64,000 nt of DNA, from assembly GCA_963971285.1 (NCBI GenBank), contig OZ020265.1, positions 570,001 to 634,000 of the forward strand, read 5' to 3'. The position numbers were made by a program, and so were the translations under genes. Origin of the DNA: Astropecten irregularis. Its lineage: Eukaryota; Echinodermata; Asteroidea; Paxillosida; Astropectinidae. The notes beneath the pieces were generated by a model that searched no databases, was not told the DNA's origin, and saw only the letters and a program-made list of their open reading frames with translations. Shown piece after piece: positions 2,911 through 55,700 of this stretch; within the stretch, counting starts at the first letter, position 1, and every line of letters begins with the position of its first letter.

Positions 2911-5900
2911 GTATGTACACCCATACCAAAATTTCTATCCTTGTGGACACATGACTTAGTTCTCGTGTACTAATAAATACTCTCTGAAGAGCAGAATTGA
3001 AATCACTCCCATTTGAACCAGAATCACTTTCTTGGGTTGAAATTTCTTGCGATTGTCCCTGATGTATAGATAATTCTCTTTGTGACGAATAAGTACCGTA
3101 TACTGTTGCTTGTACATTCCTCCTTTTTGAGTTAATTCCTAATATCAGTTTGGTGAAAACCTTGTGGAGACCTAAACACCTTTAGAATTTCGCTGTGGAG
3201 ACATATTCAACCTATTGTGCTCGGTCTCCACAAGGCACCAAAAAGGCATTCACCGCGAAAATTCCTCCATTTTTTTTATCCAAATATCAGTTTTCGACGT
3301 TTCGGTTGCTAGGACTACTAACCTTCATCATGCAATGATTTAATCTGTTTTTATCTGTTTAAATCATGAGCAAGCATGATGCATATATTTCTTTTGGGAT
3401 TAGTTTTGGGACAAAATTTGTCTCTTTTTTCTTGCCAGAACACCCAGAGTGTCAGGATGGTGAGTTTCAATGTACCGATGGGATCTGCCTGTCACATGAC
3501 CTTCTCTGTGACTTCAGGTTTGACTGCAGCGATGGATCGGACGAATCTGGCTGCCGTAAGTTTAACAAAACTCTCCACTTTTGTTTTTTGGTTTGGGAAA
3601 AACTTTCAAGAAAGTGCAGTTTGAATGACACCACTATAAGAACGACAAAACGTTGCAGTAATTAACTTAAACATGAAGAATAATACGTACCCGGTATATA
3701 TGAATTCAAATTTTCATGAAACTGAAAAGTGAACAAAGAAAAATTTACTAGAGCAGGATTCGAACCATCAACCTCCGAAATACAGGACCGCTAATCTTAC
3801 CAACTGAGCTAACCAGCCATATTTGGGTGGTATCCCTAATACTCAAATGTCTTTGTCGTATAGCAGTCAGAAGCCATGACCACTTGCATACCGCTTTATT
3901 GCTGGTTTGTTATTCCGGAGGTCCCTGGTTGGAATCCCACTCCTGTAAAAATCAGTGATTTAAATTTTCAATACAAGTAATAAAATGCTGCAAACTGCTC
4001 ATTAGTCAAAAAAGTACCTGAAATTGATAAAATGCTTGGCGTTAGGAGGGCCTGATTTGCTTCGACCCGAGCAGAATTTTTCTCAAATGCTAAAAATGTA
4101 AATTTTCGTCAATTTTAGTTTAACGTTTTTTGTTTTTTTTCCTACAGCGTCTGTGTGTACATTTGAAGACCAATCACTATGTGGTTGGACTCAGGTACAG
4201 AGTGATGACTTTGACTGGAAGCTACGAGATGGGAACGAGGTTGATACATTCGGTGGACCACTGTTTGATCATACAGCAACCAACCCACCAGGTAAGTAGC
4301 CATCTTGGAGGGCCCAATACAAAGTTAATACAAAGACTGGCTTACCATTGTTAAATAAATCCTTTGTGACTACAATAGTTACACCATTGTATCTGGCACA
4401 GTAAGATGGCCGCTGGTGGCCTCAGTGGGTACAAAGGTTTTGCAAGTCCAGGGGCCAATTTCATGGAGCTTCTAAGCACAACAATTTATTTAGCACAAAA
4501 CATGTCTTGCCTAATAAAACAAACCACAGTTAAAAATTCCATTTGATATTCATGGTCAGCGAACAACAGCCAAAGAACAATTACAAGTGATACACAACAC
4601 ATGGACATTTGGTTGTTAATCCTGTTTTTATTGAGACAGAAATTTCATGGTTTAGAAAATGTTTGTGCTTAGCAGCTCCATGAAATTGGCCCCAGATTTT
4701 TGATATGACATCCATGGTTGGATTATGCTTCATGTATTTGAAACTGATTTCCTTCTCTTTAGGTTTCTACATATACGTTGATGGATCAGAAACTTCATAT
4801 AACCAACGCGGCAAGCTTGTATCCCACACCTATCATTTGGCTGGTGTCGGCTGCAAGTTCAACCTGTACTACTACATGTTTGGTCTGTCGTACGGTGACC
4901 TTACAATCTCTGTCAGATACAGCGATAAGGAGAGAGTGTTGGGCAAGGTGTCTGATAATATCGGTTCGTACAACAGGTGGAATATGCAGAGCACTGATAT
5001 ACCAAACTGCTTGACTGACTTCCAGGTAAGTGTTGAAAAAGTGTTAATGAAGTGTTTATTAAGTGTGATAATGCATTGATAAAGTATTGATAAAGTGTTA
5101 ACAAAGTGTCGATAAACTGACCAAAAAGTGTCAATAAAGTGTTAATTAAGTGTGATAAAGCATTACTAGAGTATTGAAGTGTTGACAAAGTGTCCAAAGG
5201 GGGTCAACAACGTGTTGATAAAGTGTTAATGTTAAGTGTTGATGAAGTGTTTGTTAATTGTTGATTAAGTGTTGAAAGAGTGTTGAAAGAGTGGTTATAA
5301 AGTGTAGATAAAGTTTTGACAGAGTTTTGACAAAGTGTTGACAAAGTGTTAATGGAGTGTCTACAAAAAGTTGATAAAGTGTTAATGGAGTGTTAACAAA
5401 GTTTTGCTATTAAAGTGTTGATGAAGTGTCAACAAAGTGTTTAAAGTGTTTATAGTTTGTTAAGAATATTAACGTAAGCTGAGCCAGTGATAGGAGGCTT
5501 AAGATCCAAGAATTTCTGCAGGATTTTTGTTAATGACAATCTTTCTTTTTGAAATCATCATCAAATAACCACAAGGGAAACTGACTAGATTAATTTTAAG
5601 TCAATAAAAGGTGAACAAAGAAAAATTGACTGGAGTGGGACTCGAACCTGCCACTTTGTTCTAGATCGTTGTGGAGGTTCAAGACCTTCAAACAATCGCC
5701 TCTGAGTCTGGCTTTGCTATCGATGATCTCCGCTTTGATAACTGTGCCTATGACCTATTGCCGGTCACCACCTGCCCTGAGGGCCAAGACAAGTGTGCCT
5801 CTGGACATTGCTACCCCTCATCAGGGAAATGTGACTACCAGCTGGATTGCTGTGATGGGTCTGATGAACAGTCGTGTGGTGAGTGTCTCAATAAAATCTA

Positions 5901-8900
5901 AAACATAATTAATAAACTGCTACAAACTGCTCATCAGCCAAAATAGTGACGTGAAAATAACATGCTTGGGGTTAGGAAGGACTTCGCGTCAGGCCCTCCT
6001 AACTCCAAGCAATCTATAAGATCTAAAATCATTGAAATAGACACTCAAGAGACACTGGATTAATTTGAGGTGAAGAAAGGAAATTGACTAGAATGGGATT
6101 CGAATCCTAGACCTCCGGAATACCATACTGGCGCTCTACCAACTGAGCTATCCAGGCCCATGTTTCCAGTGTCCCAAAGTGTCAATTTTATTTGCTAGTC
6201 AGAAGCCATGAAACCACTTGCATATCCCAAGGATCATTAAAGATGCACACAACATTAGCAATGCTCCAAGAGAAACTGTTTATTAGGGATATACCTAAAG
6301 AGGATGCAGCATTGTTGGTCCCATCTACTGAAAAGCCTGGCCAGGCCAGGGCCTTAGCCTGAAATCCTTCTCTTGTCAGCCCTGAACTTCACTACAATAG
6401 AGCTGCTTCAAATCAATCAAGCCTGGATACTGTTCATGATCAATGTCATGATCAATGTGGTTTCAATCTGTCAATCAGATTAGTGCCAACTATGATCCAG
6501 AACACAGCAGGGTCTTGAAGTTGATAGTTCAAGGCTGGGGATTGTAGAAGCCCAAGAGCCTGGGCAAAGCCCAGGCCTGGCCTGACCACCATTGAAGTTT
6601 CTCTCCCTAATTTGGATTCCATTTCATTTGTTGCTCTCTCCAGGCTCTTATGACCGGTGTGATTTTGAGAGCGGTATTTGTAACTGGGAGCAGCTGACCA
6701 CTGATGATGCGGACTGGCAACGAGTTCAGGGATCAGCAGTCGGTCTGGATGATCACACGACAGACTCTCCAAATGGTCAGTATTTCCTGAGAATCTCAGA
6801 GATCTAGGCATTAAAAATTAAGAGTCGTGATTGTTGTGAATTAGAACTCTGAATTCAACGCTATGATGCCTTTCAGTTTTAAATTTGGGCAGGCAAAACA
6901 CAAGTGATCTTTGTTGGTTTCCTTTCGTGCTGTTTCACTTCTGGATCCTAGCAGAACCTTTTTGAGATTTCTCGGAGTTAGAAAGGCCTGACATTTCAAT
7001 CCTAGCAGGATCTTTCTCAACGGCTACTCAAGAGTTATCAGGGCCTTACGTTTCTATCCTAGCAGGATCTTTCTCAAGGAAGATCCTGCAAGGATCCAAA
7101 CATCAGACCCAGCTAATTTTCAGTTTATAGCTTATTTTACATTTAAAACAAATTTTGATGGCAATCTGTAGAAGTGAAGTTCTTTTAATAGGAGAGTCTT
7201 ATTGTTTTTCTTATCCTCAGGTTATTTTGCCTCTATGAGTTTGTCTCAGAGTAAGAACCAGAGAGCTCGTCTTGCAAGTATTGTTCTTGAAAGCTCCTCT
7301 ACATGTACGGTAAGTCCCTCAACATGGCTTCACCCTGGGTCAGAGCTAAAACTTCTCAACTGTTTTTGATGCTCAGAGTTAGGAGGGCCTGATGGATCGA
7401 TCTTACCATGACCTTTGTAACCTTTGAAAAACCAGTTTATCACAAGTCAACCAATCAGATGACAAAGATTTATATGGGCATAATATGAAATAAATAAAGA
7501 ATGTTTTACATTTGTGAAATGGTAAGAATAATTTCATTCTTTGACAGGTGGAATGTTCCATTCCAGTTGGCTTCATCTTGTGGAATGTAACAGTCCATCT
7601 GTCACCGTATGAAATTATTCTTACCATTCAACTCATAAACATTCATAATTTGTAAATCAATTATATTTTATGTACCTCAGCCATGCTTAGCCTCAAATCA
7701 ATCAACCAATCAGTGGAACTATCCGCCACTTTGCTGCATCTACCTTCGAGTGGTACTCCTTTGATCTTCAGGGGCCATTTTCATAGACCTGCTTAGCACA
7801 AAAAATCGCTAAGAATGACATTTCTGCCTTAATAGTAAAAACAGGATTAACAACCAAATTGCCATGTGTTTGTATCACTTGTAATTGTTTTTGGCTGTTG
7901 TTCGCTGACCATGAATATCAAATTGAATTTTCAATGGTGGTTTGTTTTTGTGCTAAGCATCTATTTGAAATTGACCCCTGATGGCCATCCCCAGGCAGTC
8001 ACGGGACCCATCTCCATCCCAGCAAAATAACAAAATAATTCTATCAACCCCATACAAATTCTTAATAACAATCACCATATTTGTTGGTTTCTTCATGCAT
8101 CAAGATGCGATTCTTCTACCACATGTTGGGACAAGACATCGGATCTCTTAGTGTCTACACACGGACTCAAGTCAACGGTCCTCTGTCGCTGCTCTGGAAG
8201 AAAGAAGGGGAGAGCGATGAATGGTGGAGAAGAGCAACAGTGGATGTGAACCTGGACCAACCTTACCAGGTATTAAGTCAGGACCTATTCCATGTTCACT
8301 TTTTGCTGGTTGGGCCCAGACATTGGAAAGCCAGACCAGGCCTGGGCTTTGCCTGGGGTCTTGGGCTTCTATAATCCCCAGCCTTGAACTATCAACTTCA
8401 AGCCCCTGCTGTGTCCTGGATCAACTGGCTGAAAAGCCAGGCCAGGCCTGGGCTTTGCCTGAGGTCTTGGGCTTCTATAATCCCTAGCCTTGAACTATCA
8501 ACTTCAAGCCCCTGCTGTGTCCTGGATCATAGTTGGCACTAAACCTGATTGACAGATTGAGTCCACATTGATCATGGACAGTATCCAGAAGCCAGGCGTT
8601 ATTGATTTTAAGCAGCTCTATTGTAGTGAAGTTCAGGGCTAACAAGAGGAGAATTTCAGGCCTGAAAGCTCGGGACATTGCTAGGCTTTTCACTAGCTAG
8701 TACAGACTATTATTAAAGTTTCTCTTTCTTAAAGTGCTGTTTAGCTCCCAAGCTTTTGAACAAAGAAACAAAGAGTTCAAAAGATCATACCAAACCCTAC
8801 TGAGAGTTCTTCTGACGTCCAAACGAACAAAGATAACCAACTATTAGGGACACCACCAACATACGGCTGGATAGTTCAGTTGGTAGAGTGCTGGTACAGT

Positions 8901-11900
8901 ATTCCAAGGGTCCCAGGTTCGAATCCCGCTCCAGTCAGTGTTTCTTTATTCACCTTTCAATGATTCTTGATTATCTGTTTTTGTCTTAGGTGATCATTGA
9001 GGTTGTAAGAGGAGACGGTTTCCAAGGTGATATATCCTTAGATGACGTCTCATTTACTCCTGAGTGTGCTGCATCCTCTTCCTCACTTCCCATCGTTACC
9101 ACGCCGATTCCTACAATCCGTAAGTAGCAAGGATCGAAACATTCAATGAAGAGCTGTTCATGATAAAACTAATAATAATGCATACTTGTATAGCGCTATC
9201 TTCACAGAAATGTTCAAAGCTTTAAAGGTGCTATCATACTTTCGTAGCATACCGAAACAGATATTTTTACAGATTAACCTATAACTTACAGGGTATAAAG
9301 ATGGTGATGGTAGAAACATATCCATTCAAGTTTTTCTGCCTGAATCGCTGTTTTTATCCAGAAAAGAGTAATACAAATGACCAAGAACAGTTTTGATATT
9401 TAAAAGATAAAAAAATAACGGTAAAAAGATTAAAGAAATTCCATGGGCGTTTTTCACTGTTTTCTCAAAAAGTGATCATCGTATGGGACTAGGAATTTCA
9501 CAGAAGACCTTTACTGTATCTTACTTGAAATTTTTATCCATGAATCTGTATTTCTTTGACAAAAACTAAAGTATAATACTACATGTATCTTCCCAAGTGA
9601 AAAATGAAAAAATAAATCAAATAACATAAGTAGAGAGCAATTGCCTAATAATCATAACTTGTTTGTTTTTGGTTCAGTTACCACGGTAGCCAGGGTCTGT
9701 TCGGACGTTGAGTTCCAGTGTCGTGACTTCACCTGCATACCAGCCAATCAGAAGTGCGACTTCAAGATGCAGTGTCCTGACCAATCAGATGAGGCCGATT
9801 GTCGTAAGTCTCTGATGATTGGTTAATTCAAAATATAAATCCTACTGTTGTCCCCTTGTTTCTCAGCAGCTTTTTGGGAGAAATGGAACCAGAAAATATC
9901 AGGCCCTCCTAAATCTGAGCAGCCTTTGAGAAAGATCCTGCTAGGATCGAAATGCCAGGCCCTCCTAACTCTGACCAGCCTTTGAGAAAGATCCTGCTAG
10001 GATCAAAACATCAGGCCCTCCTAACTCTGAGCAGCCTTTGAGAAAGATCCTGCTAGGATCGAAACGTCAGGCCCTCCTAACTCTGAGCATCCTTTGAGAA
10101 AGATCCTGCTAGGATCAAAACGACAGGCCCTCCTAACTCTGAGCATCCTTTGAGAAAGATCCTGCTAGGATCAAAACGTCAGGCCCTCCTAACTCTGAGC
10201 AGTCTTTGAGAAAGATCCTGCTAGGATCGAAACATCAGGGCCTCCTATTAAGCATTCTATATTCTAGGACTTCATTTTGGTTGATCAGAAGATTCCAGCA
10301 GTTCATTGCTTGCTTAAGGCTAAATCTGTAAGCCTCCTAACTCCTAATTTGTTTACTTGGCCTGTGCCTAATAGCTACTCTGTGTGACTTTGAGACGGAT
10401 TCTTGCGGCTGGATGGAGACTGACCCTGATAACTTTGACTGGCACTGGGCGACGGGCAAGGACACATCCGCTACTCCGAGCGTTGCACCCAGACTGGACC
10501 ACACACTGTCCAAGGACACAGGTCAGTAGTTCTACCTGGACTTCTAAATTATTATCAATTAGGGAGAGAAAAATACTTGTTGAGCCCAGTCACTGAATAG
10601 CCAGGCCAGGTCTGTGGGTTACTGTACCTACTGTAATCCCACCTTGGTTATGGTCAGTACATTGTATCCATTTGAAGCTGAACAATAGCCATATCTTATA
10701 GACTTGATGTGGGCAGGACTTTAGTCTGTTTTCAACAGCTTGGCCAGACTAGTATAAAGTTTCTCTCCCTTAGGTTTTGTTGTGCTACCTGGTGTGATAC
10801 TGAATTCAGATCAACTAGCTGACCCAAGCTACATGTAGCTTGGCAGTCTAGAGGTTGATTTCACAAAACACTAAGACTGATCACGGGTTCGAATCCCACC
10901 TGAGCCTGCATATGACTTTCTCATGGGCTCTCAAAAAGCACTGAGCATGCATTGCTGATACCCATGGGTAACAGACTAGTTATATTAAGTTAATTTAACC
11001 TGTTATTCTTTTGGAGTCGCTTCTTTCAGCACAGCAAAACATCCCAAAGATTGTTCCTTCGCTGTTCTGTGCTGTCTCTGTTTCTTAATGAGTTAGAGTA
11101 TTTCGAGAATCTAAAACAGCATAGACAATTCAATTCAGCATTTACAAATTTTGCCTTTGGTCAATTTCTGTCAAACCCTAGGTCACTACATATACATAGC
11201 TCCCTTCGGCCAGACGTCTATTGACCAGGTAGCCCTGATGGTCAGTCCAACCTACACCGTCTCTTCAGCCTATTGTGTGCTTGACATCTGGTACATCATC
11301 AGCGGTCAGAACGTCGGCGAGCTACTCCTGGTCTTAGTTGACCAGTCGGACCGGTCAGAAACAGTGATTTGGTTCAACAACGCCGATAAGGGCATCTCAT
11401 GGAGATTGCAGACTATTGGTATTGGGCGGAGACAGAACCCTTTTATGGTAATGTATTGTTAGGTCCCGCCTTCTCCTTGGTTAATTTGCATATAATTTGA
11501 ATAAATAATAATTTATTCAAATCAGAGAAAGGCAAATTAAATTGTATTTGGTATAAAGAGTAAAGAGCACCTTACGTTTCGATTCTAGTAGGAACTTTCT
11601 CAGATAAATCCTTTGGAAAGATCTTGCTCAGAGCTAAGAGGGCCTTACGTTTCTTAGCTCTGAGCAGCCTTTGAGAAAGATCCTGCTAGGATCGAAACAT
11701 CAGGCCCTGCTAATTCTGAGCAGTCTTTGAGAAAGATCCTGCTAGGAACCAAACATCGGGCCCTCCTAACTCTGAGCAGCCTTTAAGAAAGATCCTGCTT
11801 GGATCCAAACATCAGGCCCTCCTAACTCTGAGCAGCCTTTGAGAAAGATCCTGCTAGGATCGAAACATCAGGCCCTCCTAACTCTGAGCAGCCTTTGAGA

Positions 11901-14900: not shown

Positions 14901-17900
14901 CGGTAAAATACACGTCTTAAATCCTGGTTCATATTCTCTACTTCCCTATAAACACAGATCGCAATTGAAGCTTCTGTCGGTTTTGTTGCTAACGGCGACA
15001 TCGCCGTGGACGACATCAGCCTGACGCCCGGTTGCCAGGCGTACAGTGGGTCACTCCCCTTTGCCCCGGCAACCTCCCCTCCGCCTACCGGTTCAGCCCA
15101 ATGCTCAGACGGTCAGTTTTACTGTGTAGTGGACGAGAGGTGTATTGGCATGATCGACGTTTGCGACTTCAAAATGGATTGTATGGACGGAGAAGATGAA
15201 AAGGATTGTGGTAAGAGTTTCAAACATCGTGTCTGAAAAGTCATTTTCATTTTGCAGATCAAGACTGATGGTCTCTTCACAGTATAAATAGGACTGGAAG
15301 GGGTACCTAGTCCACAGCAAGGCTGCAATGAATGCCTCCACCCCTATGGTGTGGAGAAACCAGTCCCTCACACTGAAACAAGACTGATGGTCTCTTCACA
15401 GTATAAATAGGACTGGAAGGGGTACCTAGTCCACAGCAAGGCAGCAATGAATGCCTCCACCCCTATGGTGTGGAGAAACCAGTCCCTCACACTGAAACAA
15501 GACTGATGGTCTCTTCACAGTGTAAATAGGACTGGAAGGGGTACCTAGTCCACAGCAAGGCAGCAATGAATGCCTCCACCCCTATGGTGTGGAGAAACCA
15601 GTCCCTCACACTGAAACAAGACTGATGGTCTCTTCACAGTGTAAATAGGACTGGAAGGGGTACCTAGTCCACAGCAAGGCAGCAATGAATGCCTCCACCC
15701 CTATGGTGTGGAGAAACCAGTCCCTCACACTAAAACAAGACTGGTGGTCTCTTCACAGTATAATAGGACTGGAAGGGGTACCTAGTCCACAGCAAGGCAG
15801 CAATGAATGCATCCACCCCTATGGTGTGGAGAAACCAGTCCCTCACACTGGAACAAGACTGATGGTCTCTTCACAGTATAATAGGACTGGAAGGGTACCT
15901 AGTCCACAGCAAGGCAGCAATGAATGCCTCCACCCCTATGGTGTGGAGAAACCAGTCCCTCACACTGAAACAAGACTGATGGTCTCTTCACAGTATGAAT
16001 AGGACTGGAAGGGGTACCTAGTCCACAGCAAGGCAGCAATGAATGCCTTCACCCCTATGGTGTGTAGAAACCAGTCCCTCACACTGAAACAATCTCTTCA
16101 GATTGCAAACAGGACAAATAGTTTCACCTTGAACAAGTCTAAATTTGCAAGGATAACTTTCCCCCCAAACCTTTATCGCCTTTAGGAGGTTTTACCAAGG
16201 GCCATTTCTAGGCCCAGACCATGGAAGTAGAGGTAGAGGCCTTTGTCAACCTTCTTTTATTTCTCTACCACAGTTCAGTCAGTGTGTGACTTTGATTCGG
16301 GCTCGTGCCATTGGAGCCTCTCTGATGGTGATTTCTACTGGTCACTGGTGCAAGGCAACGGAGGTGACCAGAACCGTCCTGCCACTGACCACACGTCTCA
16401 GTCCACCCTCGGTACGTAAGGAAAAAATACAGAGCAACATTCTTACATTATAATTTTTTTAGAGTGCTCTTTTGAAATATGAAGTAGTAGGAAGAGAGTC
16501 TTTGAAGCTGGTTGGGCCCAGTCACAGAAAAGCCAGACCAGGCCCTGGGGCCAATTTCATAGAGCTGCTTAAGCACCAAAATTTGCTTAATTGAGCACCA
16601 AAAACCTTGTTTAATAAAATCAGTGTGCCAGCCAAAACTACTTGTCATGCTTGTGAATGTTATGCTCAGCAAACAATGGCTGAATACAAGCGGTAAACAT
16701 CACATGAACATTTGGTTGGTAATCCTGTTTGATCAAGGAAGACTCTTCATGCTTAAGCAATTTTTGTGCTTAAGCAGCTCTATGAAATTGGCCCCTGGGC
16801 TTTGCCTGGGGTCTTGGGCTTCTATAATCCCTAGCCGTAGACTGCTGTGTTCTGGATCATTGACAGATTGAGTCCACATTGATCATGGACAGTATCCAGA
16901 AGCCAGGCTTGATTGATTTGAAGCAGCTCTATTGTAGTGAAGTTCAGGGCTGACAAGAGGAGGATTTCAGGCTTGAAGGCCCAGGCCTGGCCAGGCTTTT
17001 CAGTGGCTTGGCCCCAACCGGTATTAACGTTTCTCTCCCTTGGGTATATTTCAAAAACATCTTGTGTAGGCCTAGTGAGCAAATCTTATTTTCAACAAAA
17101 CTCCAATCCAGGTTTACAATTTCTGGTAAACATTCCAGGTTTTTATGCCAATGCCATGAGCAAAAACAACGTTGCTGGAATCGCAACAATGACATCAGCT
17201 ACACTCTCCGAAACCAACACCAACTGCAAGCTGGACTTCTGGTACTACATGACGGGTACAAACGTAGGATCCCTAGGTGTGATGACTTCTCAAGCTGGTA
17301 TGAATAGCACTGTCTGGTACATCAGTGGATCTCAGGGGTCTGAATGGCAGAAAGCTGAGATGATACTCGGAGCTGGTAGTGACTATTATGTGAGTAACCA
17401 CAAAACAATCCAAACAAACGAATTTCCGCTCCACCGCACACGAAACTGCATGGTGTAAGGTGGGCGAGGACACCGCAGTAATGGCGGATGGTATTTCGTG
17501 CAGTCGGATCGGTGCATACTGAAACAGTTTGCAAGAAATCATTGCTGTTTTTTTTTTCCGTCTTGTCTTCTTTCAGGTGATCATTGAGGCTCGGAGATCA
17601 GCAACATACTCAGGCGGTATTTCCATAGATGACGTCAGTTTCTACAGCTGCTCACCGCCTCTTATCACCGGCGTGCCCTGCAACGACGACCAATTCCGCT
17701 GCAGTAACTCGCTGTGCATCGATCAGCTGTCAGTCTGCGACTTCAAGAACGACTGCATGGACAACAGTGATGAAACCAATTGTGGTATGCTTAGCAGAAA
17801 AACTTGCTAACCATGAAACCAATTGTGGTTTGCTAAGCAGAAAAACTTGCTAACCATGAAACCAATTGTGGTATGCTATTAAAGCAGAAAAACTTGCTAA

Positions 17901-20900
17901 CCATCAAACCAATTGTGGAATGCTTAGCAGAAAATCTTGCTAACCATGAAACCAATTGCGGTACAGTATGCTATCAAAAAAAACTTGCTAACCATGAAAC
18001 CAATTGTGGTATGCTTAGCAGAAAAACTTGCTAACCATGAATCCAATTGTGGTATGCTATCAAAAAAACTTGCTAACCATGAAACCAATTGTGGTATGCT
18101 ATGCAAAAAAACTTGCTAACCATGAAATTACTGTCTTAATAAAAACAGGATTATCAACCAAATTAGATTTGTTGTGTATCACTTGTGATTGTTCTTGGGC
18201 TGTTGTTCACTGACCATGATTATGAAATGGAATTTTTAATGGTGGTTTGTACGTTTTATTTGACAAGACATTTTTGTGCTAAGCAATTTTTTATGCTTCC
18301 CTTCCCTTAACTCATAATTAGTGACAAGGGTGAGTTATGCACCCCCTCGAGGTCCAACTAAACTGGATGTGGTTGAGATAGACCGTTCAGATGTCTTAAG
18401 GCACATTTGTAGACCGATCTACGAAGTCTAGACTGTCCCTCCTCGACGGTCTTAGTTTTCGAAGATAGACCGTTTTACCACCCAAAACGTAGGCCGTTCA
18501 GACACAAGTATAGGAAGACCCTTTTCAGTTAAAACCCAAGATAGACCAGTTTTAGTACTGTGTCTAAACGCCCCCATTGCCCAGCCAGATGACCTCTATT
18601 TGACCAATGGCTGATATAAGGCCGAACAAATCAAAGCAAAATATATCCCTGACAGAAGTTACTGATTTGTTGACTAAGAAAGTTTTAATTTCGTGAGTCT
18701 GTTGTCTTATCCTCAGGGCGGTCGATGAGTTGCAGTTTTGATGAGGACCTGTGCAGATGGCATCAGGAATATGACGATGATTTTGATTGGTCGTTGAGGA
18801 GTGATGGAGCTGGAGGGTTGAGTGTTGGACCAATGAATGACCACACGACAAATTCAAACCAAGGTATTAAAAGAAATTTACGAATAAAAGCAGGCAACTG
18901 AGCTATCCAGCCCTTTGTTGGCGGTGTCTCTCAAATAAACAATAGTCTTTTTCGTTTGGCAGTCATCAGTAGCCATGAAACCACTGAAATACCGCTATCT
19001 CCCAAGGATCAAAGATAATTGACTATTAGGGACACGTGAACTTACCTGGATAGCTCAGTTGGTAAGAGCGCCGGTACGGTATTCCAGAGGTCCCTGGTTC
19101 GAATCCCGCTTCAGTCAATTTTTCTTTGTCTGCTTTTCAATGATTTATTTTTTATTGCATTTTTTTTTTTAGTTTTGAAGGAGTGACTTACAAAGTGAAT
19201 TTGCTCAATTATGTTCATACTTCTCATTTTGACATTTGTCAAATAATTATTTCCTCTTCTAGGGAACTACCTTTATATTGATTCTTCGTGGCCGAGACGA
19301 GCTTCTGACATGGCTAGACTGGGCAGCCCTTCCATCAGTAGAAACAGCAACAACTGCTATGTAAGTTCACAAACAGGAGTTAAGCTTTAGTACAGTGGAA
19401 CGCTATTATAAAGAACACTGCTATACCGAATATTTGGCCGTACCAAACATTATCCTTTATGATGTGATCAATGAAAGGACTTGTCAACTATAACTATCCT
19501 TAGATACGTATACAACGTACATAGGCAATTTCTGTGTACAAAACATATATAAACATTGTTGTTTAAATCACTGAAACGAGCCACTATATTGTAATGGGCA
19601 ATTTCTGCCGTGTTTGTTATAGCGGCGTTCCACTCTAGTAACATTTTATGTTTGAATACGAAAGCTTTTACCTTTTTAATCTTTGTCTCATGGACCCTTC
19701 CGGCCTGTCAATCAAACTGTAAGCTTTGACCAATTGGAGGACGCCTTTCAATCAGGTGACCACGAAAGCCTCGGTCAAACTCGGTCACACGCTGTATGTA
19801 AAACACACATGTGGGAAGGGCTTAAAAGCAGAGCTGGAACGGTCCATTATAGACCTATATGAATCCAAGTCTGACATTTTTATTCGAGTGACTTGCTATT
19901 TGATAATTTTTACCTCAATAAACCAAAAAGAAATAAAATTATACTTTGTCGTAATTTGTATGTTTTTGGAAGTTGGAATATTTTGTGACGTTCGCCTTAT
20001 TTTTTGTCCCAGGTTCGATTCTGGTATTACATGAATGGTGAGGATGCAGGAACCATCGTCGTACGTCAGCGTCCGTCGTATCTTAGCAACACCTTGCCAC
20101 AGATGGAGCGCATCACTGGTTACCAAGGCAACGCCTGGCATCTAAAGTCCATGTCTGTCAACAATCCAGGGGTGGACTTTGAGGCAAGTCTAAGCCATAT
20201 CCATTACCCATGTCTGTTAGCCATAGCTATTGACTGCAGCCGTTCTTATAGACCTGTGTGTTACTAAGCCGCAGCCTGAAACAAACCTATGACAGCCATA
20301 GCTATTGACTCCAGCCCTTTCCATAGACTTGTGTGTAATTAAGCCGCAGCCTGAAACAAACCTATGACAGCCATAGCCATTGACTGCAGCCCTTTCCATA
20401 GACTTGTGTGTAATTAAGCCGCAGCTTGAGATATATCAATGGTAGCCATTGCCAATGACTGCAGCCGTTTCCATAGACTTGTGTGTTATTTGTAGCCACA
20501 GCCAGGGATATGGACACATGTACCAACTTGTCCAATCATATAGAAGCAAATGACAGGAATAATGATTTTCTTAAGGACATCATGTAAGGACAATCAAAAT
20601 GGGAGACTTTTGAGAACCGATCTTCAAGTCAACAGCGCACGTGCACGCACACGCACAACAGCGCATGCGCAAAACAACTTGTGCATGCTTACAATTGCGT
20701 GCGCGTGCGGTGTTGACTTGAAAACGGTTTCTCAAAAGTCTCCCATTGTATTGAAAATTTGGAGGATTTTCAAAGAAAGATGCATGACTGAAGTGGGATT
20801 AGAACCTGCAACCTCCAGAATACTGCTCCGGTACTCCACCAATTGAGCTATCAAGCGTTATTCTCAGCAGCGTCCCAAATGATCAGTTACCTTAGATTGA

Positions 20901-23900
20901 TTTTGATATTGATTGGTATTGATTGGTATTGATTGATATTGATTGGTTTTGATTTATTTTGATTGACAGATCGTGATAGAGGGAATGGCTGGTTCGAGTC
21001 CAAGAGGCAGCGTGGCTATTGATGATGTCTCCTTCTCTTCAGGATGTATCATGGTGAGTGAGGCTGCTCAGAGTTAGGAGGGCCTGACATTTCAATCCTA
21101 ACAGGATCTTTCTCAAAGGCTGCTTAGAGTTAGGAGGGCCTGACATTTCAATCCTAACAGGATCTTTCTCAAAGGCTGCTCAGAGTTAGGAGGGCCTGAC
21201 ATTTCAATCCTAACAGGATCTTTCTCAAAGGCTGTTCAGAGTTAGGAGGGCCTGACATTTCAATCCTAACAGGATCTTTCTCAAAGGCTGCTTAGAGTTA
21301 GGAGGGCCTGACATTTCAATCCTAACAGGATCTTTCTCAAAGGCTGCTCAGAGTTAGGAGGGCCTGACATTTCAATCCTAACAGGATCTTTCTCAAAGGC
21401 TGCTCAGAGTTAGGAGGGCCTGACATTTCAATCCTAACAGGATCTTTCTCAAAGGCTGTTCAGAGTTAGGAGGGCCTGACATTTCAATCCTAACAGGATC
21501 TTTCTCAAAGGCTGCTTAGAGTTAGGAGGGCCTGACATTTCAATCCTAACAGGATCTTTCTCAAAGGCTGCTCAGAGTTAGGAGGGCCTGATGTTTCGAT
21601 CCTAGCAGGATCTTTCTCAAAGGTTGCTCAGAGTTAGGAGGGCCTGACGTTTCGATCCTAGCAGGATCTTTCTCAAAGGCTGCTCAGAGTTAGGAGGGCC
21701 TGATGTTTCGATCCTAGCAGGATCTTTCTCAAAGGTTGCTCAGAGTTAGGAGGGCCTTACGTTTTGATCCTAGCAGGATCTTTGTCAAAGGGTGCTCAGA
21801 GTTAGGATGGCCTGACGTTTTGATCTTAGCAGGATCTTTCTCAAAGGCTGCTCAGAGTTAGGATGGCCTGACGTTTTGATCCTAGCAGGATCTTTCTCAA
21901 TGGCTAAATGACAAAAGAACAAAGCTTGCATTGTTAGGATGGCCTGATCTTAGCAGGTTAGCAGGATCTTTCTCAAAGGCTGCTCAGAGTTAGGATGGCC
22001 TGACGTTTTGATCCTAGCAGGATCTTTCTCAATGGCTAAATGACAAAAGAACAAAGCTTGCATTGTTTTAATCACATTCTTGTGGAAAGGTCATATCGTT
22101 AATAGTTCCGATCATTTTGGATTGTTCCATTTTCAGGGAGGTGACCTACCTGGTGAACCAATGAGGGGTGATATTAGTCTCTACTGTCCTGACGGCCAGT
22201 ACGCCTGCCTGACGTCTTCCGGATGTTACAGCCAATCACATCACTGCGATTTAATCCCACAATGCAGTGACTCGTCTGACGAAAATACTTGTGGTGAGTA
22301 TGAAGCATCTTTAAAAAGATAGATACTCAAATGCAATTCTCTAACCTTAAAACGTTTGATAAGGAGTAATGCTAATGCAATTCTAGATTGTGTTCTGTGA
22401 TTTCAGAAACTTTAACATAGTTGTCAAATGTTTGTGCTAAGTATGAAATTGTCCTATGGTGGCTATGGCTACCTGGCCAATTTTTCAGAATCTTCAGTTC
22501 TTCTCCAAGAACCTTAGTTCTTTGGATTCATTCTAAGGTTCTTGTTTGTATCTAAGGTTCTGAGTGTCACTTTGAGAGTGGGAGTAGTGCATGTGGATGG
22601 TATCATGCTTACTCTGATGTTGGTATGGACTGGCTCTATGGACAACCAACAGGTACAGGGCCAAATACTGATCACACAACGGGAACAGATCAAGGTACGT
22701 ATCAACAATTCTATGGGCGTTTATGAAACGGAGGCTCAGGCTCAGGCTCCAGCTCTGTCATCCATATGCTGAAATTGTAGGTTGTGGTTTTCCATTGAAG
22801 CTGAAGCTCTGTTTTCATTTTTCAAACCAGAGAATCTATTTCTGAACCGCAGCCAAAAGTCTCTATTTTGATGCCCGTTATTTTAGAATGGATTCACGAA
22901 ATGGAGCCGGAGCCTGAGGTGGAGACTGGGCAACCGTTTAGTTAACGCCTTATAAACTCCATTTGCCACGTCTCGGAATGTTAACCATTTAGTATATTCC
23001 CATTTATGGAACTTCAATTCCACATTGGAAGCAAGTCTGATAGTGTAAACCTCAATTGCTTGGCATAAAAAGTTCCTTATTGGAACCTTAACACTTTGGT
23101 ATGTTCCCACCCATGAAACCTCAACTAAAGATAACACAACAATGTAGTGTCAATTTAAATTGCATGGCATAGAAAGTTCCTGATTGGAACCTTAGTTTTT
23201 TGGTATGTTCCCATCCATGGAACCCCAATTCAACAAAGATAGCAAGACAAGGTAGTATAAATCCCAATTGCCTGGCCTAAGATGTTCCTTTAATTAGAAC
23301 CTTAACACTTTGGTATGTTCCCACTTGTGGAACCTCAACTCCACAACCACAAAAAGCCAATGTTACTTCATATTTAAAGGTTCCAACTCCAAACCCTGGA
23401 ACTTAAAAAACTCTGAAATGTTCCAAATCATGGCCTATAGCTTGAATCAGGGTATTAGAGTGAAATAACTCACTACAATTTAAGTTCTTGTTAAAAATCT
23501 GATCACTTCCTCCTTGCTTAGTAATATCAATTTTAACTGCTCCTCCTTTTATCTCTTTGCAGGATTTTTGATGATGGTCATTCCGCCACAAAGTTTCTCG
23601 TTACCCGGCAAAGCAATTCTAAGTTCCCTGGTGTACCAGCGATCCAGTCCGTTGTGCGATTTCAGTTTCTACTTCTACAACGGGAACAATCTGAACTCGA
23701 TAACGGTTAACATAAAGATGGGAGACACTTCGGAACTAAAGGTTCATTTCCAAATTAATGTCATGACTGCTATCATGTATAGGTGTTTCCATTTGATTGC
23801 GACATTTCAACATCCTTGGGTCGATTTCACGAAGCCCTACGTTCGATCGTAACTCGAGTTACGAAGGATAACCCTTCGTAGGGGGCCTATCCCACGTAGG

Positions 23901-26900
23901 GCTTCATTGCATGAAAAGTCCAACAATTAATTAATTTAAATAACTTTAAGTAACTTTACAAAGAGTTTGGTGAAATCGACCCCTGTTTATCGAGGATGAG
24001 GGATCTGATTCACTCTGCTGACCCCAGCTAGCTTGGTGGCCTAGCAGGTATGGCATCTTCTGTAAGAAGGAGGTCATGGGTTCGAATCCCGCCTGAGCTA
24101 GCGTATGATTTGCTCAAAAGCACTTTATAGTGAAGTGCTTACCAGTGTTTGGTACTTAATAAGCAGCTCTATGAAATTAGCCCCTATTTTTAATCATTTT
24201 GTGGTTCCATTTTACATGTTTTGCTTCTGTATTTCATTTCCTCTCCGCAGCAAATTTTTACGAGTTCCAACCAGATGCAAGGATGGCAGTCGACGGGAGA
24301 GATAAACATCGGTGAACAGAGGAACTTTGCCATTCAGATCCAAGCCAACTTTGGTTCCAGCACCAGCGCCATCGCGGTTGACGACATTGAATTTGCAGAA
24401 CAATGTGCAATTGGTAGGATTCCTTGAAAAACAGGAAAAAATTCTTTGAATAAAAGCTCTGGCTCTGTTTTAGAGTGTCTATTTAATTTTGTTCTGTGAA
24501 AAATAGTACTTAAAATAGGATGGAAACGTTAGGCCCTCCTAACGCAGAGCAGCCTTTGAGAAAGATCCTGCTAGGACCGAAACGTCAGACCCCTAACTCT
24601 GAGCAGCCTATGAGAAAGAACCTGCTAGGACCAAAATGTCAGACCCTCCTAACGCTGAGCAGCCTATGAGAAAGATCCTACTAGGACCGAAACGTCAGAT
24701 CCTCCTAACTCTGAGCAGCCTTTGAGAAAGATCCTGCTAGGACCGAAACGTCAGGCCCTCCTAACTCTGAGCAGCCTTTGAGAAAGATCCTGCTAGGATC
24801 GAAACGTCAGACCCATTTCAGCATTTTATATTTCAGTTCATTGTTTTGGTTCATGAGCAGTTTGCAGCGGTTCATTACTTGTGTTAAAGGTACAGTACAG
24901 GATTGGTAACATACCCAAACAGAAATGTTACGTATAACTTTCAGGGAGTGAAGATGGTGATGGTAGAAACATACCGTAAAAATATTTGTTCCATCTTTGA
25001 ACTCCTCAGGTCTTGGGAAACAAGAGTCGTGCAATACAGATGAGTTCAAGTGCAGCAGCAGTGAATGTGTGAATCAGAACGTCATCTGCGATAAGAAACC
25101 AGACTGCTTTGACGGCTCAGATGAAACCTCTTGCGGTAAGTCCAGACCCTTGTCTTAAAAGTTGGGAAGTTTGTGAGGCATATCTCACTGCAGTTGTGAG
25201 TACATGTATGTGGTTCTTAGTAACTTAGTTACCACTTCTATCAAGTCACAACCACATTATACTCTCAAATAGGGCTTGAAGTTCAAGGCTGGGGATTGCT
25301 GAAGCCCAAAAGCCCAGGCAAAGCCCAAGCCTGGCCTGGCTTTTCAGTGGCTAGACCAGTATTAAACTATGATCCAGGACACAGTAGGGGCTTGAAGTTG
25401 GTTGAAGTTGATAGTTCAAGGTTGGGGATTATAGAAGCCCAAGACCCCAGGCAAAGCCGTGGCCTGACATGGCTTTTCAGACTGGCTAGGCCCAACCAGC
25501 ATTAGTTTCTCTTCATAAGTTGACTGATTTCTTGTTTGTTTTCTTTTTTTTTCAGCCTCATACACTGGTTGTGACTTTGATGAGAGCAGCATTTGCAGCT
25601 GGTCACAGCTCAGTGATGATGAGTTTGATTGGCTTCGAGCCAGCAGCACATCAGCAGTCACATCAGATCACGGCAAAGGTAAGAGCGAAGTTTGAAGGTT
25701 TGCATGGTGGGTTCACGATGTTAGATATTTGCGATGATACCGTGTATTAGGCCGTGTACCAAATCTCTGGCTGCGGCTGCAAATTACACACGCACCTATG
25801 GCAGCCACTACCCAGTGACTGCAGCTGTTTCCATAGACTTGTGTGTTATTTGCAGCCGCAGAAACAGAGATTAGGGACACGGCTCTTTTGAGACTGAGTG
25901 TGGCTCTGAGAAGAGCCGTTAACATTTTGATTACGTTACAAATTGATTAATTAATTATGTTCATTGAAAAGTGAACAAAGACAAATTGACTGGAGCGGGA
26001 TTCGAACCGGCAACCTCCTGAATACCGTACAGGCGCTCTACCAACTGAGCCATCCAGCCCTACGTTGGTGGTGACCCCAATAGTAAATTATCTTTGTTCG
26101 TTTGGCAAGTAATTTCAATAAATTATGTTATAACAGGTGGGCAGTTTATGTACGTCAGTGGCTCTGGGCGGCTAGTTGGAGATATAGCTAGAATCATGAC
26201 AGCTACAGAATTCCCGGCAAATAGTAAAGGTTGCAGAGTCCGATTCTGGTACCACATGAATGGCCTTAACGCTGGATCACTAAAGGTATAGAAGCTTTGC
26301 TTATTCATCATATTCTTGTATTTATAGGGAGGAAACTTTAATACTGGCGGGCCAGGCCACTGAAAAGCCTGGCCAGGCCTGGGCCTTCACAGGCCTGATC
26401 TGAAATCCTCCTCTTGTAAGCCCTAAAGTTCACTATAATAGAGCTGCTTCAAATCAATCAAGCCTGGCTTCTAGATACTGTCCATGATCAATGTGGACTC
26501 TGTCAATTCGGACACGCTTTTGCTTAGTTACTTAACAGATGACTTGCACCAGTGCACTGTTCATAATGGATAAAAATGGCACAAAGGAACAAGTCTATTC
26601 CACAGATCTTGGGTATCGCTATGCAAGCTTGCCCCGCATCATGTGATATAACAACAGAGTCTTTAGTCTGGGAAATTCAAACTGGGGTGTTTATGTGCAA
26701 TGAAAGAAGTCTGTGTACCAGACACCATTCAAATTTAGCTCGCAAATGGCTTATTGAGAAACATACAAATGCCAAGCTTTGTCTAAATTATTTGGATATG
26801 GCTTACGATTGTACATGTGTCTATGCAAATAGCCACAGCCACTGAAATGGCTTATCCTGAATTTAAAATCCCTCCTTAAATTTGATCTCTTGCACAAAAT

Positions 26901-52500: not shown

Positions 52501-55500
52501 CGGCCCTCTATTGATAGTCTTGGTTCAAGACTGTATTGGTGTGGATACTCGAACCGCACTGACCATACGTGTGTACGTACAGGTAATCCGCACACCCGTA
52601 AGCACGGACCTGTCACTAATACAGTGTTATCGAAGGCCTTTACGAATGGGTGTACGTACGTGCGTGTCAGTGCGGATAATCGGTTCGTACGTTCGAGTAC
52701 GGTAATAACATAGTCGTGGACCAAGACTACTCTATTGACCGCACTTGCACAAACACGTACAGTGTACGTACATGTAGGTAGGAATTTACGTCTTGGAACC
52801 AAGACTAGGTATAGTACTGTGTACTGTGTAAAGATGGTGTCTCCCACGGAAATCATTTTCATGCTGGTTCGTTCGAACTTTATGAGAGAGAAATGACACT
52901 CAAAGCCCAAGATATATAAAGCCCTGATCATATCGCTAGAAAAAGCAAAAGAGGAAAGATTTTGAGCCTTTATCTTACATATTCATTTTTATTTCGGTGG
53001 TTGTATGAAGTTTTGAAGACGTTGCAAAGTTGAGTTTCAGAAAAAAATGCGATCGGCCTACAAACAATGACAAATGATGGTCAGAGTGCGGGACATGAAA
53101 GTACGTATCGCGTGCGGCAACTTTTGTTTCAATGGTTTAATAATTTCTTAGTTGTATCGTTCATACCATGTGTCTTATTTCTCCATGTTGGTACAAAACT
53201 GCAGTACACAATCATATACATACACATATACATCCACAGGCATGGGCCCACTGACACAGAGCTTGGTATGTGGAGTTGTGGTTCAACCTTAGGGCAATTA
53301 AACTGTTCCCATCTCAAGAATATATCAAGCTTTCTTTATGGACTAAAGAAACTGATATTATTCCTGTCCAAACTGTAATTCTTGCTTAACACATAACAAT
53401 TAAATAAGTTCTCTAACAACATTTCTAAAGCTTTAACTTTTAGTACTTTCCCTGTTTAAAGTTGAGATTTCCTCCTTTCTCATCAAACCAACTAGACAAA
53501 AGTGAGAACAACACAAGTTTTAAAGATGTTTCACTTTCTACATCAAAGATCAAAATAACTATATCTATGCTAAGTAAAGTTTCACTTTCCATAGTTTAGC
53601 AATGCATGGACACAAACTTATTCCTTCTTCAGTCTTGATGAAACGTTAATCAAATAACAAAGGAATATTCAAAGTCACTTAGCCTAACAATTAAGAAATG
53701 CAAAGCCAATTGGTAAACTTCTACAAATGAATAAAACAATTGGTATTAAAAAAAATTAATACATTATATTGTACATACCTGTTGAATAAGGGTAGAGGGA
53801 ATACACCATTAATATTCTGACGTGTACTGCTCACTTGAATGGTTTTGCCACAAGTGACAAACACATACACTGAAGGTCAATATTCCCCTGTCCACATATA
53901 TACATGTATACAGGCCTATTCCATTTCCTGTAGAGGGGCTTTTAAAAGCTAAACAAGAAATAGGGGTGCCCGAAAATAGACACACAGCCCTCTATATACA
54001 ATTGACCCAGGGCTTGATTTCACCAAACACAGAGATTAATTTTAAGATGAGTTGTCATTGACAACCCCAACCCTAACCCTAACCCTATTTTTTAGATCAC
54101 CGTAGTGATTTGTTGTGCCATAGTGTTGTTGTGTGGCAGCACACTTGAGTGCTTAGCAATTAATTATGATTCACACGTAAGATCAATCTTAGTGCTTTGT
54201 GAAGTCGGCCCCAGGTTTTTCATTGAAGCTGAAGCTCTGTTTTCCTTTCCAAACCAGTGAATCTACTTTCGAATCGCAGCAAAAACAATTTTGATAGCAC
54301 AAAAATAAATTTGCTGAGCAAAATGTTTTGCTCAATAAACACAAACCATCATTCAATTTGATGTTCTTGGTCAGCGAACAACAGCCAAAGAACATGATCA
54401 CAAGTGATACACAACACGTGGAAATTTGGTTGTTAATTCTGTTTGTATTCAAACAGAAATGTCATGCTTAGAAAATGTACTAAGCAGGGCCGTGAAATTG
54501 GCCCCTAGGTTTTACTATTGGCCTACTGTGGATATACAGTACATATAGTTGGAATTGGCGAGCCTTTCCGTGAATCGTCATTATCTTATTCCAATGCAAT
54601 TGAAACCTATTGTTGGCCTATTAGAGTACACATTTTCTCATCGAGAATAGCAGTTACTTTTCTGCTAGAACATGACCTAGGTCCCAAGCCTCTCGCAAAA
54701 TCTCGCGGGATTTGGTTTGATTTTTGCCTAATTAGTAGACTATTGAATTTTTATTCTCTAACAGATGATCTTCGTCTAGAAGGTACCAAACCCCCGCCGC
54801 CAGAGGGCAGCAGACCACCCCCTCCCGAAGAGCGTAAGCTGAAGAAAGATGGCGACGACAAGGATGGGCGTAAACCACCACGCCAAGAAGGCACCAAACC
54901 CTCGCCACTAGAGGGCAGCAAACCACCCCCTCCCGAAGAGCGTAAGCTAAAAGAAAAGAAAGATGACGACAAGGATGGGCGTAAACCACCACGCCCAGAT
55001 GGCACCAAACCCTCGCCACCAGAGGGCAGCAAACCACCCCCTCCCGAAGAGCGTAAGCTAAAAGAAAAGAAAGATGGCAACGACAAGGAAGATAAGGATG
55101 GGCTAAAAGCTAAAAGAAAAGAAAGATGACGACGACAAGGATGGGCGTAAACCACCACGCCCAGAAGGCACCAAACCCTCGCCACCAGAGGGCAGCAAAC
55201 CACCTCCACCCGAAGAGCGTAAGCTAAAAGAAAAGAAAGATGGCGACGACACGGATGGTCGTAAACCACCACGCCCAAAAGGCACCAAACCCTCGCCACC
55301 AGAGGGCAGCAAACCACCTCCACCCGAAGAGCGTAAGCTAAAAGAAAAGAAAGATGGCAACGACAAGGAAGATAAGGATGGGCGTAAACCACCACGCCCA
55401 GAAGGCACCAAACCCCCGCCACCAGAAGGCAGCAAACCACCTCCACCCGAAGAGCGTAAGCTGAAGAAAGAAAAGAAAGAGGGCGAGGAACGCAAACCAA

Positions 55501-55700
55501 AACGCCCAAAGGGCGAAAAACCACAAGGCCCCAAGGCGCCTGAAGGAAGCAAACCACCACCGCCAGAGGGCAGCAGACCGCCACGCCCTGAAGACAACGA
55601 ACCTGAAGGCAGTGGCGAGCCACCACGCCCAGATTTGGCAGATGACCTTCGTGAAGAGCGTATGCTCGTTCGTCTTTACCATTTCCTTGAGAAGCAGTAA
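49519..55700 (+). CDS. Secreted Pro/Lys/Glu/Asp-rich tandem-repeat protein (family not recognised), frame slip in assembly
   Basis: Three exons: 49519-49585 (non-coding), 50775-50958 (ATG at 50787) and 54765-55700. The product opens with a signal peptide (MLKLSLLVGVACLLVMTQA), then an acidic amphipathic helix (DLRDLMKEIIEDELKEELVE), then 36-41-residue repeats of GTKPSPPEGSKPPPPEER plus KLKEKKDGDDKDGRKPPR, a lower-complexity Pro-rich end and a closing helix DDLREERMLVRLYHFLEKQ. No Cys after the signal peptide. Pro/Lys/acidic repeats suggest an extended, charged secreted polymer or matrix or mucus component, or a precursor; this is inference. The frame changes by +1 between 55001 and 55167, so as assembled the first frame stops at TGA 55127-55129. 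Confidence 0.72.
49675..50600. repeat. Intron 1: family B MITE, GCATACGTTTGGTAA MITE and a tRNA-SINE side by side
   Basis: Family B 49675-50032; an element at about 50035-50410 with ends ATTGCATACGTTTGGTAA and TTACCAAACGTATGCAAT; a plus-strand SINE at about 50430-50600 with GGATAGCTCAGTTGGTAGAG and GGTTCGAATCCCGC. They take up most of the intron. Confidence 0.8.
50775..50958 (+). CDS. Signal-peptide exon of the secreted repeat protein
   Basis: Coding from ATG 50787 (context ATCATCATGC; short 5' UTR in the exon) through GKNGDKG-split codon, ending in phase 1 at donor GTAGGC. Residues 1-21 are a typical signal sequence, with likely cleavage after TQA or QARP; the rest is a highly acidic/basic helix. 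Confidence 0.78.
50959..54764. repeat. Intron 2 of the secreted-protein gene: several MITEs, no exon seen
   Basis: GGTACAGTAC-type MITE at about 51430-51800; a foldback element at about 51950-52296 with TTAGGCCTAAAAAA ends and inverted GTGTTGCCCTC / CGACCGACCG text; an inverted-repeat block between GTCTTGGTTCAAGAC (52517) and GTCTTGGAACCAAGAC (52790); a short CCCTAA telomere-like run at 54068-54085; MITE A at 54190-54508. The segment 52850-54000 shows nothing recognisable. Confidence 0.65.
54765..55700 (+). CDS. Repeat exon of the secreted protein, with frame slip
   Basis: Repeat units start at 54782, 54890, 55001, 55167, 55281 and 55404. Spacing is a multiple of three (108, 111, 114, 123) except 166 between the third and fourth, where a unit is shortened (GGGCTAAAAGCTAAAAG). 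Codon frame before and after differ by one base. The downstream frame runs open to TAA 55698-55700 and ends in non-repeat sequence that mirrors the DDLR start of the exon, which suggests it is the real carboxy end. Confidence 0.72.

Follow-up and report, generated by a model that had tools for sequence, protein, structure and literature searches.

How is an exon end chosen when that end and its 5′ splice site have been copied again and again into the following intron? This question arises in the sea star Astropecten irregularis, in a gene composed of successive MAM and LDLa modules, which extends over about 27 kb from the start of the stretch analysed here (64,000 nt, hereafter the window; its contig, OZ020265.1, is chromosome 22, of 12.08 Mb, according to the chromosome table of PMC11480709). 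In the exon carrying the module LDLa 6, the last 15 coding bases and the adjoining GTATGC donor open a unit that is repeated in tandem down the intron. We consider it likely that this array is a neutral product of slippage or unequal exchange with no selected function, and that the first donor, at 17785, performs nearly all of the splicing.

Tandem Repeats Finder (TRF) delimited the array at 17770-18127, with a period of 43, 8.1 copies, 85% matches and a score of 509. All coordinates are positions within the window, and the array is described on the plus strand. Alignment of the units agreed with TRF that the 43-bp repeat opens with the exon's last 15 coding bases and its donor, as an earlier sequence-only reading of this DNA had proposed. 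That reading counted nine copies; the tandem array stands, but it resolves into eight full units of 42-48 bp and a six-base stub, 358 bp in total with no N (Table 1). The units differ by small indels and substitutions, and units 1 and 6 are the same across all 43 bases.

The copied exonic segment is well preserved. Of the seven downstream full units, four carry the 15 bases exactly and three with one substitution, and six retain GT at the donor position. The plus strand holds five exact occurrences of this 15-mer and eight with at most one mismatch, the minus strand none, against an expectation from base composition of 0.0001 exact matches per strand. Substitutions affect 3 of 105 positions in the exon-derived part of the units and 16 of 195 in the intron-derived part, the latter figure being inflated because the aligner misplaces unit 5. 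Decoy donors accompanied by copied exonic context, as previously described, are thus present, but the context is altered in three of seven copies and ends at 15 bases. Across the splice site itself, the 9-mer GTG/GTATGC (the slash marks the exon-intron boundary) is identical at 17785, 17871, 18009, 18052 and 18094. The last four of these positions are as the earlier reading listed them, whereas its site at 17828 reads GTTTGC and 17966 is a further candidate beside its 17961.

Table 1. Features of the array and its flanking exons (positions within the window).
Feature	Position	Strand	Length (bp)	Remarks
Exon, MAM-domain end and LDLa module (LDLa 6)	17577..17784	+	208	Supported by frame, Pfam PF00057 and homology to the gene's other MAM/LDLa exons
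Unit 1	17770..17812	+	43	Last 15 exon bases and 28 intron bases, including the GTATGC donor
Putative true donor GTATGC (GTG/GTATGC)	17785..17790	+		
In-frame TAA	17808..17810	+		Encountered if the intron is retained or if any of the tested downstream donors is used
Unit 2	17813..17855	+	43	Decoy donor 17828, GTTTGC, weak
Unit 3	17856..17902	+	47	Decoy donor 17871, 9-mer same as that of the putative true donor
Unit 4	17903..17945	+	43	Donor GT gone (GAATGC)
Unit 5	17946..17993	+	48	Five additional bases; candidate donors 17961 and 17966
Unit 6	17994..18036	+	43	Decoy donor 18009, 9-mer same as that of the putative true donor; identical to unit 1
Unit 7	18037..18078	+	42	Decoy donor 18052, 9-mer same as that of the putative true donor
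Unit 8	18079..18121	+	43	Decoy donor 18094, 9-mer same as that of the putative true donor
Ninth-copy stub ATGAAA	18122..18127	+	6	
Next exon, opening the following MAM domain	18717..18863	+		Open-frame join only from donor 17785 among eight tested

Exon models for the gene were built from homology and splice signals. The exon preceding the array matches LDLa with an E value of 3.3e-10, enters in phase 0 and leaves in phase 1 (TGT G/GT), and its junction with the acceptor at 18717 reads openly from ...SDETNC G/ into the next MAM domain (CSFDEDLC...). The same ending, a Cys codon followed by one base and GT, recurs in three other LDLa exons found in the gene; the LDLa module at 25030-25134 of this gene ends GATGAAACCTCTTGCG/GTAAGT. 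Frame and homology thereby support an exon end at 17784, as modelled. Because this end corresponds to the conserved SDExxC end of the LDLa module, the exonic boundary would be the ancestral part of the array.

The downstream donors have a uniform coding consequence. All seven tested (17828, 17871, 17961, 17966, 18009, 18052 and 18094) run into the TAA of unit 1 after GMLSRKTC, and among eight donors only 17785 gives an open junction, which bears out the earlier proposal that the first donor alone keeps the protein open. Use of a decoy would lengthen the exon from 208 nt to 251-517 nt and place a further junction 164-430 nt past the stop in every one of the seven cases. A stop codon with a further junction beyond it is the usual geometry for nonsense-mediated decay, and under this general rule the spacing means that decoy transcripts would be expected to decay.

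To place the array in its genomic setting, we searched 475.73 Mb of genome sequence in 168 contigs (PMC11480709 states 475.80 Mb and 186 scaffolds). A 26-base unit junction, allowing up to three mismatches, returned seven matches in the 475.7-Mb genome, all of them inside the array, while a control pattern returned none; the 371-base array region gave one genomic match in a search that skips very common words. Since neither the junction nor the region matches elsewhere, the array is a local duplication rather than a dispersed satellite.

The arrangement is also singular among LDLa modules. An LDLa family search of the genome yielded 150 scored matches from 783 first-look candidates, and a pattern survey of the window and fetched loci collected 110 LDLa-like domains, 108 of them with at least 300 bases downstream, not all of which end at an exon end. 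Only one of these 108 domain ends, that of the exon ending at 17784, is followed within 500 bases by a copy of its own last 12 bases (at most one mismatch), and it is likewise the only one with a TRF array starting before the domain end. Among other arrays near LDLa ends, two short ones start 10 and 20 bases past the end and five start 48-59 bases past it. Within the gene, an excess of arrays near splice sites was not significant (14 arrays, four within 15 bases; P 0.05-0.08 in four tests). Those tests used 29 exon ends, several of them approximate: 19361 and 20182 are each displaced by one position, and the exon starts 8105, 13957, 22136, 22565, 26139 and 27027 are not settled.

Two known systems offer a comparison. 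In amphioxus, tandem repeats termed mirages span exon-intron boundaries in Adh3 and in the globin genes BflGb6 and BflGb9; many but not all of their units carry AG/GT signals, regular splicing is reported to be undisturbed, and a unit size of 10-72 bp is quoted for Adh3, according to PMC3087553. Likewise, PMC3902484 likens repeats of PGBD5 to mirages, names troponin C as another case and reports that mirages do not disturb splicing. The sea star array resembles them in having a minisatellite-like unit that spans the boundary (15 exon and 28 intron bases, eight full units) and in keeping its splice signal in many units rather than all (GT is retained in six of the seven full units beyond unit 1). 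It differs from them in belonging to a sea star and in being a donor-side array of eight units. The array is therefore a mirage-type structure, a known kind of element apparently in a new phylum, the echinoderms. A search by title or abstract found no report of such arrays in echinoderms or elsewhere, a weak negative given the thin coverage of subscription journals; text on huntingtin was likewise silent about boundary arrays.

The second system is the minisatellite of human IFI6 (6-16), where known isoforms take their donors from two downstream repeat units, as described in PMC4526556. At both loci several donors are offered by a tandem array lying at the end of an exon. Unlike the IFI6 repeats, most unit lengths here are not multiples of three, and all downstream donors tested lead to a stop. 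That all seven donors terminate after GMLSRKTC argues against useful isoforms of the IFI6 type. For the two alternatives of the earlier reading, decoys passed over because of their position or decoys used with decay to follow, published parallels exist on either side, in amphioxus and in IFI6 respectively.

We infer that splicing uses mainly donor 17785, and the history that we favour runs as follows. A 43-bp segment that included the exon-intron boundary would have been duplicated in tandem in place, by replication slippage or unequal exchange, and the resulting minisatellite would then have been reshaped by further duplication and exchange. Indels and substitutions among the units, together with the identity of units 1 and 6, are as expected of minisatellite turnover, and this 43-base identity suggests that the boundary unit itself took part in recent turnover or gave rise to it. 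The exon would probably be defined from its acceptor at 17577 and from exonic signals located upstream of the last 15 bases, which the decoys lack, so that the 5′-most donor would mainly be chosen by the splicing machinery. Occasional use of a decoy would produce transcripts bearing a premature termination codon, which would be degraded. On this account the array would have no selected function, representing repeat turnover in which a splice site is included by chance.

Several observations weigh against this account. Of the gene's 25 modelled GT donors (a probable GC donor at 20183, set off by one base, was excluded), 17785 is the weakest by U1 pairing (-4.2 kcal/mol) and the third lowest by leave-one-out matrix score; it matches the consensus at five of nine bases. 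It scores no better than four of the decoys, and since the 9-mers are identical, the sequence of the site cannot separate the true donor from these four. Competition also extends beyond the array: three exonic GT sites and six in the rest of the intron score at least as high as 17785, the best non-array site being 18330 (AGG/GTGAGT), with 8.45 against 3.73. The decoys are thus not its sole competitors. Across the window 386 of 3783 GT sites score at least as high, and with so many non-array sites equal to or better than 17785, site score alone is no predictor of a donor. In vertebrate extracts offered two identical donors, the acceptor-proximal one often wins, which would favour the decoys. 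The IFI6 case further demonstrates that splicing can make use of downstream donors within a repeat (PMC4526556). Finally, the copy number of the array comes from a single assembly; PMC11480709 also names an alternate haplotype.

On a regulatory interpretation, a real share of transcripts would use the downstream copies, stop at the TAA and be degraded, so that copy number would tune gene output. The sharing of 9-mer and score between four decoys and the true donor, the common stop of all seven downstream donors with its later junction, and the precedent of IFI6 are consistent with such poison donors. However, the decoys exhibit no sign of maintenance, with the GT lost in unit 4 and the site weakened in unit 2; and the amphioxus mirages are described as silent in PMC3087553 and PMC3902484. 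We regard this interpretation as unlikely. Even more doubtful, in our estimation, is a structural explanation, which would be compatible with neutral turnover and could act as its mechanism: the decoys may mask themselves in a hairpin formed at the unit junctions, while the true donor stays accessible to U1. At these junctions AACC precedes ATGA, and the decoy donor is predicted to lie in a hairpin of 7-8 bp with a six-base loop, of -5.4 to -5.5 kcal/mol at 17828, 17871, 18009, 18052 and 18094. No such hairpin is predicted at 17785, because the exon reads GTG where the unit junctions have AACC. We compared the predicted cost of opening positions -3 to +6 at the true site with that at these five decoys and at the unit-5 candidates; position 17914, which does not correspond to a donor in unit 4, was excluded. 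With 25-base flanks the five decoys cost 6.9-9.5 kcal/mol against 3.5 for the true site, and with 40-base flanks 5.8-7.8 against 4.8. This contrast nevertheless vanished at flanks of 60 or 100 bases, where the true site cost 7.6 and 6.3 and the five decoys 5.1-8.6 kcal/mol. Moreover, candidate 17966 was predicted to be open at every flank tried (0.7-2.0 kcal/mol), and 17961 to be hardly, if at all, more closed than the true site. The hairpin stands at the 5% chance level: over 23 bases, folding at least as good is predicted for 186 of the window's 3731 other GT sites (5.0%), and among 1500 sampled GT sites 8.9% cost at least 6.85 kcal/mol at 25-base flanks and 23.8% at least 5.75 at 40. Folding of the region as a whole surpasses that of all 100 shuffles (z -2.5), a value inflated by the repeated complementary units. 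If it were true, self-masking would explain how boundary-spanning minisatellites are tolerated despite a weak true donor that has no advantage in sequence.

Two further explanations appear highly improbable to us. The units might serve as raw material for exon or intron gain, being spliced as 30-nt phase-neutral mini-exons; the array does contain 15 open acceptor-donor combinations, and a model of intron gain by AG/GT tandem duplication is discussed in PMC3087553. As in that model, the duplicated unit carries a GT; in contrast to it, the unit holds no good acceptor by score and no new intron was seen. Spliced mini-exons are unlikely because the 11 AG sites of the array score only -6.3 to -0.1, far below the 4.6-17.2 of the gene's acceptors (n = 23, a range flattered by the matrix having been built from these same sites). 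An assembly artefact deserves equally little credence. Tandem arrays can be mis-sized, yet these units differ from one another, the 358-bp array contains no N, and the genome note gives HiFi coverage of about 49-fold and a QV of 56.8 (PMC11480709).

The neutral origin with splicing mainly at 17785 accordingly remains our preferred explanation, and the array probably does little harm. Its value lies in the natural test that it provides, since a single intron contains the true donor together with four copies that match it over nine bases. The choice among them, and the grounds for it, would inform on the parts played by position, exon signals and RNA structure in selecting between equal 5′ splice sites. 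If splicing proves normal, as reported in amphioxus, the locus would be a curiosity of repeat turnover.

Other exon boundaries of the gene have features of their own. A donor of perfect consensus at 5026 (CAG/GTAAGT) leads into an 11-bp array at 5028-5454 with a unit like AAGTGTTGATA; this array starts inside the donor, at intron position +3, and its copies look poor as donors by eye. The small exon 20970-21053 is flanked by arrays on both sides (window 20903-22067): upstream, a 10-bp array stops three bases short of it, and downstream a 56-bp array at 21061 starts seven bases after the first base of the exon's donor. One MAM exon seems to end in a GC donor, GAG/GCAAGT (window 20183-20189), possibly marking a GC-AG intron.

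Minisatellite families recur in the window, their likeness being judged by eye from TRF consensus units. The 56-bp unit occurs in both orientations in separate arrays at 9899, 11658, 21061, 24516, 35723 and 46785, and on contig C19 near 7666500. A 119-bp family is present at 15260 and 61812, with a related array at 40672, and a 106-bp family at 8327 and 28758. A proline/lysine-rich tandem repeat at 54778-55584 has units of about 111-114 bp with nested 24-bp units and long open frames on the plus strand.

Among RNA features, a histone 3′ stem-loop gave one match (25877-25922, minus strand) and tRNA families matched at 6085, 8865, 24030, 25987, 38880 and 50503; four of the tRNA-family matches fall inside the MAM/LDLa gene. 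Two of the six were also called as tRNA genes by ARAGORN, and the others may be tRNA-derived repeats. Elsewhere in the genome, a COX1 stretch with seven TGA codons on the chromosome-size contig C25 (9951047-9952018) is probably a nuclear copy of mitochondrial DNA, and contig C131 (32162-33484) has a COX1 that the standard code reads without stops and that may derive from a bacterial cobiont. The mitochondrial contig C168 carries cox1, nad4L and cox2 in this order, with a tRNA block ahead of cox1; nad4L and cox2 were identified by eye. It is read with code 9, AAA standing for Asn at conserved sites. Such a gene order and code fit an echinoderm, and the tRNA order an asteroid. A genome search for the GFP family returned nothing, a weak negative because its control gave no match in any of 14 genomes. 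On contig C19, a stop-free frame of 1999 amino acids (16729111-16734891) accounts for 23 of the 150 scored LDLa matches, apparently a single long exon of tandem LDLa modules.

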